A stretch of 20,804 nt of DNA from a virus. The notes under the pieces were generated by a model that ran no database searches, was not told where the DNA came from, and saw only the letters and a program-made list of their open reading frames with translations. The stretch lies in the IMG/VR virus record IMGVR_UViG_3300009790_002287, positions 1 to 20,804 of that record. One strand, 5' to 3'. A program made the position numbers and the translations under genes. Shown here one piece after another: positions 1,832 to 17,155 of this stretch. Each line of letters starts with the position of its first letter. Within the stretch, counting starts at the first letter, position 1.

Positions 1832-3319
1832 ATGAACTTACAAGAAATGAGAAGTATGATTGGGTCCATCATCGACTACGACCCACAAGTGACGAGCTAT
1901 CAAGATGAAGTAAACCGAATTGTAAATGAGATCTATCTTGAGTTCTTTACATCCCACCCTTGGAAGTTCAACCAAAAATCAGTCGATGTGTATACGAAGC
2001 CAGATGTATCTGATACAGCAGCTACGATTGCACAAACAACTTATTCAGAAGAATACCCCTCGGCGGCAGTCACATTGTCGTCTTCTACGTTTTTGAACTC
2101 TAGCGAAAGCCGGTTTGGCCAAATAAAATACGATGGCGAGGTTGTCGTTATCTCTGGATCCGAAACGAACATAAACAATGGACTGTACATTCTTGACAAA
2201 CAAGCAGCGAATGGTACGGCCTTACAGATAAGCAAATACTCATCCAACTCACCAAGACATCACTTTACTGGAAGTGGTTCTGAAACAGTCACGTGTCAAG
2301 TACAACAAAGGTATCTTACACTGCCACAAGATTGTATCAACATCCTATCAGTCGGCATTAGAAACTTAGAAGAAGCCGGTGTAGGAACAAATGCATTGGG
2401 ACACGTTTACGCTCTGATGCGTAGAGAAGACGAAGAGTTGAACTTACGAGATGACTTTACTGGTACACCCACTTGTTGGATACCTTACGATCAACCACCA
2501 GAAACTGTATCTCGTAAAGTACGTGATTACATACCCAGAGCAAACAAAGACTTCAAAGTAGAAGATGCAGCCTCTGGCGGTGGATGGCTTGCTGGTACAT
2601 ACGAGTTTGCAATGGCATACGAACTACACGGTGAAGTAGGACCAATGAGTGATCCAATACAAATCACGATTGCACAACGACCTCACTTTACTTTCCAAGA
2701 TACAACAAAACAAGGCAACTTTGGACTACGTAAACGAATCTTCTTTCGTATCGTATCAGCCGAAGGAGTACTGGCTGGTGTCAATCACGAAGAGAAGTTC
2801 TTTAGAGACCTCGGTGCTTTCGTATTCCAATCTGCTGGTGCAACACTTAACCGCGTTATAGCCGAAGATACAGATACAACATTCCAACTTCCATACCAAG
2901 AAGCTTGGTGGAACTTAAATGTGATGGCAACGTTGCTACAAGTACCAAGAGTGCCCGTCACACTGGATAACCGGTGGAGAATACGTTTACACCCAAGACC
3001 AGCGACACAAACGCCAATGCGAATACGATACATGTATTATCCAGGCAAGTTGCTCGATGATTACGATACACCAAACTCACCAACTGATACACACAGATAC
3101 CTTGTCTATCGTGCTTGTCAAGAGTTATTCGTAAAGCATAAGAACCCGGACATGGCGTTATACTACGAAAAGAAAGCAGATGATGAAATGCGAAAGTGTG
3201 AAAGAAGATACTTGAGCGAAAGAGCACAATACTACATCAAAGGTTCTATGAGAGGTGGTCCTATGCATCTTCGCCCATTCCGTAATCTAACACACGGTAC
3301 TGGAGCGGATGGAACATAA
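1832..3319 (+). CDS. Head-tail adaptor, tail tubular protein A-like (T7 gp11 position)
   Basis: 495 residues. The N-terminus (residues 1-55, helical, with EVNRIVNEIYLEFFTSHPW) and the C-terminal part (residues about 380-465, WRIRLHPRPATQTPMRIRY followed by helices in RYLVYRACQELFVKHKNPDM) look like the adaptor or 'gatekeeper' proteins that ring the portal and carry the nozzle. T7 gp11 is under 200 residues, so about 300 residues between these parts are extra. That insert contains a fibronectin-III-like stretch near residues 249-280 (TYEFAMAYELHGEVGPMSDP). The SD site is AAAGGTGATAA just before the ATG. The next gene starts on the last base of its stop codon (TAATG), fitting stoichiometric partners. 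Assignment rests on order and on this end-to-end pattern. Confidence 0.65.
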   Translation: MNLQEMRSMIGSIIDYDPQVTSYQDEVNRIVNEIYLEFFTSHPWKFNQKSVDVYTKPDVSDTAATIAQTTYSEEYPSAAVTLSSSTFLNSSESRFGQIKYDGEVVVISGSETNINNGLYILDKQAANGTALQISKYSSNSPRHHFTGSGSETVTCQVQQRYLTLPQDCINILSVGIRNLEEAGVGTNALGHVYALMRREDEELNLRDDFTGTPTCWIPYDQPPETVSRKVRDYIPRANKDFKVEDAASGGGWLAGTYEFAMAYELHGEVGPMSDPIQITIAQRPHFTFQDTTKQGNFGLRKRIFFRIVSAEGVLAGVNHEEKFFRDLGAFVFQSAGATLNRVIAEDTDTTFQLPYQEAWWNLNVMATLLQVPRVPVTLDNRWRIRLHPRPATQTPMRIRYMYYPGKLLDDYDTPNSPTDTHRYLVYRACQELFVKHKNPDMALYYEKKADDEMRKCERRYLSERAQYYIKGSMRGGPMHLRPFRNLTHGTGADGT

Positions 3320-16628: not shown

Positions 16629-16903
16629 TGCCAAAGAAAAAGAACTACAAAAAGATCTATAAGAAGTACCATTCTTCTAAGAAAGCAAAGACCGAAAGGA
16701 ACATGCGAAACCAAGCAAGGCGAAGAGCTAAGCGGAAAGGTTTGGTAAGGAAAGGAGATGGCCTTGAGATAGACCACATACGGCCCATAAGTAAAGGTGG
16801 GAGCAACAAACCAGATAACCTACGTGTCGTAAAGAGAAGTACGAACAGACGTAAAGGTGCCAAGTACTCAACCAGATACAGACCATCGAGGAGAAGCAAA
16901 TAA
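16628..16903 (+). CDS. Small HNH endonuclease
   Basis: 91 residues. The catalytic core is clear at residues 46-76: LEIDHIRPISKGGSN, then DNLRVVKRSTNRRKG. Asp49-His50 form the usual DH pair, Asn64 the central Asn, and Asn73 of the NRRKG motif the last one. These residues bind one divalent metal and cut DNA. The usual CxxC zinc ribbons flanking many HNH domains are absent. Residues 1-44 are instead almost entirely Lys/Arg (RRRAKRKG), probably a DNA-binding arm. The start follows GGAGG (16613-16617) and overlaps the stop of the giant protein (TAATG). HNH proteins beside phage packaging genes assist DNA cleavage; others are homing enzymes. The location in the late block, coupled to an ejection gene, fits packaging or virion cargo better than homing, but this is not settled. 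Confidence 0.85.
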   Translation: MPKKKNYKKIYKKYHSSKKAKTERNMRNQARRRAKRKGLVRKGDGLEIDHIRPISKGGSNKPDNLRVVKRSTNRRKGAKYSTRYRPSRRSK

Positions 16904-16977
16904 TGTGTACAACTTGCAAAAGTAGAAACTGTAAATGTTGTGATTGCTGCGAATGCAATTGCGAAAAATGCAAATAA
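16903..16977 (+). CDS. Tiny cysteine-rich, metallothionein-like protein (24 residues, 10 Cys)
   Basis: The ORF is 24 codons plus TAA and is too short for most ORF finders. Ten of 24 residues are cysteine, in the order C-x2-C-x4-C-x-C-C-x-C-C-x-C-x-C-x2-C; the others are mostly Lys, Asn, Asp, Glu and Thr, with no aromatic residue. CxC and CC pairs without aromatics are the hallmark of metallothioneins, which bind several Zn, Cu or Cd ions through clustered thiolates. Evidence that it is translated: an SD site GAGGAG at 16888-16893, nine bases before the ATG, and a one-base TAATG overlap with the HNH stop, the same junction used by four larger genes here. Metal binding follows from composition; the biological role (metal supply to the HNH enzyme, redox buffering, virion part) is unknown. 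Confidence 0.7.
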   Translation: MCTTCKSRNCKCCDCCECNCEKCK

Positions 16978-17002: not shown

Positions 17003-17155
17003 ATGAAGAAACCTAAAAGAAAAATGAAAGCAAGAGCGAGACTAAAGAAGAAGCGTACGAAGGCAAAGCCTATGCGTCGTGGAAAGAATAAAGCTATTGC
17101 AAGACAGAGACAAGTAGCCAATCAAGAGATGGGCAAACCCAATCAGTACAACTAA
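17003..17155 (+). CDS. Small highly basic protein (50 residues)
   Basis: Too short for standard calling. It has 13 Lys and 8 Arg in 50 residues (42% basic) and one acidic residue (Glu42). The N-terminal two thirds are strongly basic (MKKPKRKMKARARLKKKRTK) and the C-terminus is neutral and Gln/Asn-rich. The leader GGTGATAACAAATG matches the leaders of other genes here (AGGAGATAACCATG at 7947-7960, AGAGGATAACAAATG at 10422-10436). No fold is recognised. The composition fits a nucleic-acid-binding or DNA-condensing protein, possibly packed in the head beside the ejection proteins, but could also be a ribosome- or RNA-binding factor. It stands 25 bases after the cysteine-rich gene. Confidence 0.6.
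   Translation: MKKPKRKMKARARLKKKRTKAKPMRRGKNKAIARQRQVANQEMGKPNQYN

Follow-up and report, generated by a model that had tools for sequence, protein, structure and literature searches.

The short open reading frame (ORF) at the 3' side of an HNH endonuclease gene in the virus record examined here is almost certainly a real phage gene. The 24-residue, ten-cysteine peptide that it encodes belongs very probably, as judged by sequence comparison, to a widespread and previously undescribed family of phage proteins of 13-24 residues, about half of them Cys. It appears rather likely that the micro-protein works like a metallothionein, that is, as a metal-thiolate peptide. The window, i.e. the whole stretch of DNA that was analysed, is a virus record of 20.8 kb, whose genes include those of a capsid, an adaptor and a tail-fibre-like protein. 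The features discussed are collected in Table 1.

Table 1. Features of the window around the Cys-rich micro-ORF
Feature	Position	Strand	Remarks
Giant protein, 2064 aa	10434..16628	+	Upstream synteny marker; without Pfam match
HNH endonuclease gene, 91 aa	16628..16903	+	PF01844, E 5.9e-7; phrog_4590
AGGAG, Shine-Dalgarno-like (SD) site	16889..16893	+	Within the 3' end of the HNH gene; 9 nt upstream of the ATG
TAATG overlap	16901..16905	+	HNH stop codon (TAA, 16901-16903) and micro-ORF start
Micro-ORF, 24 aa, ten Cys, MCTTCKSRNCKCCDCCECNCEKCK	16903..16977	+	ATG to TAA
Very basic ORF, 50 aa, MKKPKRKMKARARLKKKRTKAKP...	17003..17155	+	Next downstream; without family match
p142, 142 aa	17191..17619	+	Downstream synteny marker; 45% identical in L504, 48% in L584
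p93, 93 aa	17631..17912	+	Downstream synteny marker; 57-59% identical in L504
p313, tail-fibre-like, 313 aa	17929..18870	+	Downstream synteny marker; 72% identical in L504

The micro-ORF and its slot in the window

The Cys residues of the peptide occupy positions 2, 5, 10, 12, 13, 15, 16, 18, 20 and 23, and its build is that of a CTTCKSRN segment followed by the family core CKCCDCCECNCEKC. The frame with its ten Cys and their spacing, the SD site at a proper distance from the ATG and the overlap with the HNH gene had all been reported in a first-pass annotation of the sequence and were found exactly as described. Cys is encoded by four TGT and six TGC codons, among which stand varied non-Cys codons, and the micro-ORF is not covered by any tandem repeat. 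The ORF is presumably translated.

Neither the window DNA, nor the micro-peptide, nor p142, nor the flank of the related locus L504 had a match in annotated phages. No close relative of the window phage was found, and the window copy of the micro-ORF has no close homologue. The search of the PDB with the micro-peptide gave a single, meaningless match to a defensin (E 5).

The giant protein encoded upstream is probably an internal virion protein. No relatives of its C-terminal part were found in viral contigs, and its relatives are only remote ones, namely the giant genes lying in the same place in L504 and L584. The former locus is a distant relative of the window, with neighbour proteins 26-72% identical to those of the window; the giant gene before its micro-ORF shows 26% identity over 462 aa. 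Directly after this gene L504 contains an SD-led MTNCKCCKCCDCECCDE, which is followed by a basic protein, the HNH gene being absent between them. Since L504 was fetched by its Cys pattern, the independent finding in this locus is the synteny and not the Cys content. L584 was found through its p142 homologue, without the use of any Cys pattern, and there too the slot following the giant gene is taken by an SD-led peptide, MIYLDSVCTGCYKRLCCCAKCCNE, again with no HNH gene. This peptide shares the C-x2-C-x4-C start with that of the window, has just seven Cys and contains I, Y and L. In both loci the same basic gene (83% identical) comes next, with its start codon overlapped by the stop codon of the micro-ORF; its product differs in sequence from the 50-aa basic ORF found in that place in the window. 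A linkage of the micro-gene to this basic gene was considered and rejected, since of the 27 loci bearing it L504 and L584 alone have the Cys ORF. In L586, the most distant relative examined, the giant gene runs straight into the p142 homologue, and no Cys ORF of this kind was found in L586-L588. The Cys micro-gene thus belongs to the slot after the giant gene in part of the group. Its position in the structural-gene block, the one pointer to timing, may suggest expression late in infection.

A family of Cys-packed micro-proteins in viral contigs

The viral contigs were scanned with three patterns, and all resulting counts are lower bounds. The first pattern, the plain C-x-C-C-x-C-C-x-C-x-C core, matched mostly TGC-repeat-like DNA in frames without a start codon, among which short, SD-led and very polar ORFs were recognized, for example MSSCKCCRCCSCECC and MCKCCKCCTCTCPECN. 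When the core was anchored to an SD site, as in the second pattern, many more short ORFs were recovered. In the third pattern the first two spacers were restricted to K, N, E, D, Q or H. This makes it immune to TGC repeats, because Cys and hydrophobic codons are barred at these two positions; it gave at least 122 matches, at least 96 of them in ORFs of 60 aa or less, with an SD-like site in 90 of the 96.

The family collected in this way comprises at least 108 members and at least 64 distinct peptides, MSKCKCCKCCNCTCC being a further example. Among the matches listed, the peptides are 13-24 aa long (median 16) with 8-10 Cys each; after the Met, 53% of the residues are Cys and nearly all of the rest are K, N, E, S, D and T, while F, W, I, V and H do not occur at all. 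After the core C-x-C-C-x-C-C-x-C-x-C comes either C or x2-C(C). Among the matches listed, the window peptide exceeds all others in length and alone has ten Cys. Most members are SD-led and fitted between co-oriented phage genes, with median gaps of 11 bases to the upstream and 7 bases to the downstream gene, which are typical of genes in operons. The virus records that were checked whole have one copy of the micro-gene apiece. The core pattern was absent from the whole records of 12 isolate phages, and only a handful of comparable ORFs occurred in the cellular genomes of an 84,980-species collection.

Since the search patterns themselves fix most of the core Cys, the conservation of these residues proves little, and the pooled family pN/pS of 0.22 is biased low for the same reason. 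Cys conservation and synonymous bias, which the first-pass annotation had named as a check, were therefore not taken as main evidence. A fair test is provided by the positions that the pattern leaves free. Among the distinct cases listed from the SD-anchored scan, Cys was present at both core positions 9 and 11 in 21 of the 30 cores in frame with an ATG, whereas of the 58 out-of-frame cores only 6 had it there (Fisher p 2e-8); the spacer residues 2 and 5 were polar in 51/60 in-frame against 35/116 out-of-frame instances. Hydrophobic residues made up 1.7% of the in-frame cores and 14-19% of those out of frame.

Some other Cys-rich frames were encountered in the course of the scans. L208 contains, at 3125 (-), a different SD-led phage micro-protein, MCCQCCKCCKNSNSEGLAKPEYVPPPPPVKIKIA, which combines a short cluster of Cys with a tail rich in proline; the same type is present in L220, L269 and L287. 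A cellular contig from a Bacillota MAG (L340, 1536 (-)) encodes an SD-led 47-aa MAKCKCKCCECCKCNPCTCGDTCNCCKCDVCECCKCNPCECAPCCCK, a longer and repeated version of the same motif. The viral contig L532 has, around 7777 (+), an open frame of 662 codons in which a CCDCC cluster is followed by KVPKVK repeats.

Genomic contexts and mobility

Homology of the immediate neighbours sorts the members, among the matches listed, into about 39 contexts, which include PhoH with a PD-(D/E)XK nuclease, DUF6267 with a cytidylyltransferase, and a primase-like gene. The DUF6267 and cytidylyltransferase genes of cyanophages abut or overlap by a few bases, whereas in phages of the L297 type the micro-gene stands between the same two genes with 3 bp on either side; from the gene order this is a clean insertion of the micro-gene. 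The varied neighbourhoods, together with this comparison, therefore indicate that the micro-gene is an accessory phage gene that moves. Just upstream of the micro-ORF in L206 lies a phage gene (1111-1878 (-)) with a match (E 1e-27) to PF03332, the family of eukaryotic phosphomannomutases.

The metal-thiolate reading

The composition, spacing and size of the peptides fit a metal-thiolate function. With 24 aa and ten Cys in the window, and 13-24 aa and 8-10 Cys in the family, they have the size and Cys content of the metallothionein class, and they share with it the C-x-C, C-C and C-x2-C clusters, the near absence of aromatic residues and the lack of His. No Pfam family, PF02069 and the other metallothionein profiles included, was matched at E<=10 by ten family peptides, that of the window among them, HMMER being poor on sequences so short and biased. 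A description of a phage or viral metallothionein was not found in the open-access literature, and one may exist in subscription journals or in large catalogues of small genes.

The fungal Family 8 Cu-metallothioneins of Neurospora crassa and Agaricus bisporus are not known to contain aromatic residues or His. They resemble the phage peptides in size, in their many C-x-C motifs and in the dominance of Cys. They have 26 aa and 7 Cys (PMC4755600). Compared with these, the phage family is denser, with its 8-10 Cys in a shorter chain, and has adjacent C-C pairs within C-x-C-C-x-C-C as well as K, E, D and N as spacers. The fungal 26-residue proteins are the nearest known analogues by build. The bacterial metallothioneins SmtA/BmtA (PF02069) and the mycobacterial MymT are also small, cytosolic and Cys-rich, and may share the mode of work. 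However, they are about 50-60 aa long, and SmtA has metal-binding His, whereas the phage peptides are shorter and without a Pfam match.

According to the mechanism proposed, the micro-protein would be made within a phage operon from a compact ORF that has a ribosome-binding site to itself, and this unstructured peptide would wrap around thiolate-loving ions, Cu(I) or Zn(II), gathered in a small cluster, so as to buffer metal in the infected cell. The benefit could be that during infection Cu(I) and Zn(II) are kept off Fe-S enzymes and vulnerable thiols or, alternatively, that metal is held for phage metalloenzymes. What the sequence shows is the ORF, its SD site, the recurrence in many phages, the choice of residues and the synteny of the slot; metal binding, the kind of metal and the benefit are inferred. 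The first-pass annotation had likewise proposed a phage metal-thiolate mini-protein; its metallothionein-type Cys clusters, the lack of aromatic residues and the recurrence of the SD-led form support that proposal in part, while the coupling to the HNH enzyme that went with it is not supported.

Other explanations

The micro-peptide could instead be an accessory to Fe-S assembly or to sulphur/thiol redox and not a Cu/Zn buffer; it might, for example, protect Fe-S scaffold proteins, serve as a sink for them, or act as a thiol buffer. The idea comes from the neighbours. Among 120 neighbour proteins the A-type carrier family Fe-S_biosyn ties with DUF5824 as the commonest Pfam family (4/120), and NifU_N and NifU occur twice and once, respectively. 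In L581 (1-420 (-)) the Fe-S carrier gene starts 3 bp after the micro-ORF, in L214 (3577-4356) a NifU_N scaffold gene starts 8 bp after it, and in L206 (-) a carrier and a scaffold gene follow close downstream; over these three loci the distances range from 3 to 325 bp. Carrier or scaffold genes were present in 6 of 108 member loci as against 2 of about 507 other loci (p 5e-4, the loci not being independent). Nevertheless, the linkage concerns a minority of contexts (L206, L214, L538/L541, L566 and L581), and in most of them, including that of the window, Fe-S genes are lacking in the vicinity; the base rate of Fe-S genes in other marine phages may exceed that in the comparison loci; and no signature specific to the binding of Fe-S is seen in the peptides. 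Because base rates vary from one phage group to another and the loci are not independent, the linkage is to be taken as a lead only. An accessory role in Fe-S assembly seems unlikely. Fe-S neighbours would also fit a peptide by which Fe-S assembly is protected from Cu(I) or Zn(II).

Less probable still is that the ORF is a cysteine-sensing leader, on the Cys codons of which slowed ribosomes control the next gene. Mycobacteria have short Cys-rich ORFs ahead of operons, for which Cys-responsive control was proposed (PMC4633059; Canestrari et al. 2020, as cited in PMC9031893). These ORFs are, like those of the phages, very short, Cys-rich and overlooked by annotation, and several members of the phage family do abut or overlap the next start codon. 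The mycobacterial ORFs, however, stand upstream of operons, some of them with Cys-metabolism genes, and their Cys codons are clustered, whereas the phage ORFs, with their SD site and spaced Cys, lie inside operons between unrelated genes and do not stand first ahead of Cys genes. The ORF of the window is placed between the giant virion-like gene or the HNH gene and the structural genes, and elsewhere the neighbours are varied and do not mark the start of a Cys or sulphur operon. After the window ORF no terminator-like site and no Rfam match were found, and the folding energy is ordinary (z -0.30). The conserved polar spacers and the C-x-C-C spacing also point to a peptide and not to runs of codons.

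A chance frame without function is very improbable, although the window copy lacks a close homologue and ORFs of 24 codons are common. At the Cys content of the other window proteins (0.55%, 36/6526), the probability of at least ten Cys in 23 codons is 3e-17, and at the any-frame TGY rate of the window it is 6e-9. In 6.2 Mb of first-order Markov sequence, containing 92,513 ORFs of 12-60 aa, ten Cys were reached in one ORF and 35% Cys in two. Far stronger evidence than these statistics is that the peptide form recurs in other phages, the same SD-led form being found in at least 64 distinct peptides and the same slot being filled in the two related phages L504 and L584. The earlier judgement that the composition is very unlikely by chance is borne out.

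The least credible reading, and one largely refuted, is that the micro-peptide is a zinc donor or partner specific to the upstream HNH nuclease: the TAATG overlap implies translational coupling and HNH enzymes use metal ions, but none of 71 HNH-relative loci, an independent check, had a Cys-rich ORF of this kind, L504 and L584 lack the HNH gene in the slot, and among the neighbour families listed for the 39 contexts, namely 25 of the 41 from Pfam and 25 of the 54 from PHROGs, there is no HNH family. On these data the functional link to the nuclease is not supported. Since the micro-gene holds its slot in L504 and L584 without the HNH gene, the latter is most simply regarded as an insertion in the lineage of the window, and it would be an incidental neighbour of the micro-ORF and not part of a unit with it.

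Significance for phage biology

If the metal-thiolate reading is right, a sizeable class of phage genes would have been invisible so far, because ORFs shorter than about 30 codons are passed over by gene callers. On an evenly balanced judgement, this widespread, mobile and unannotated gene of environmental phages may encode the smallest metallothioneins known, in some phages within an operon that also has Fe-S carrier and scaffold genes, and phages may actively manage both thiolate-bound metals and Fe-S chemistry in the cells that they infect. The peptides would then be the smallest natural metal-thiolate proteins, short enough to be ready-made for metal-binding tests, and would offer a handle on the dealings of phages with the Cu, Zn and Fe-S chemistry of their hosts.
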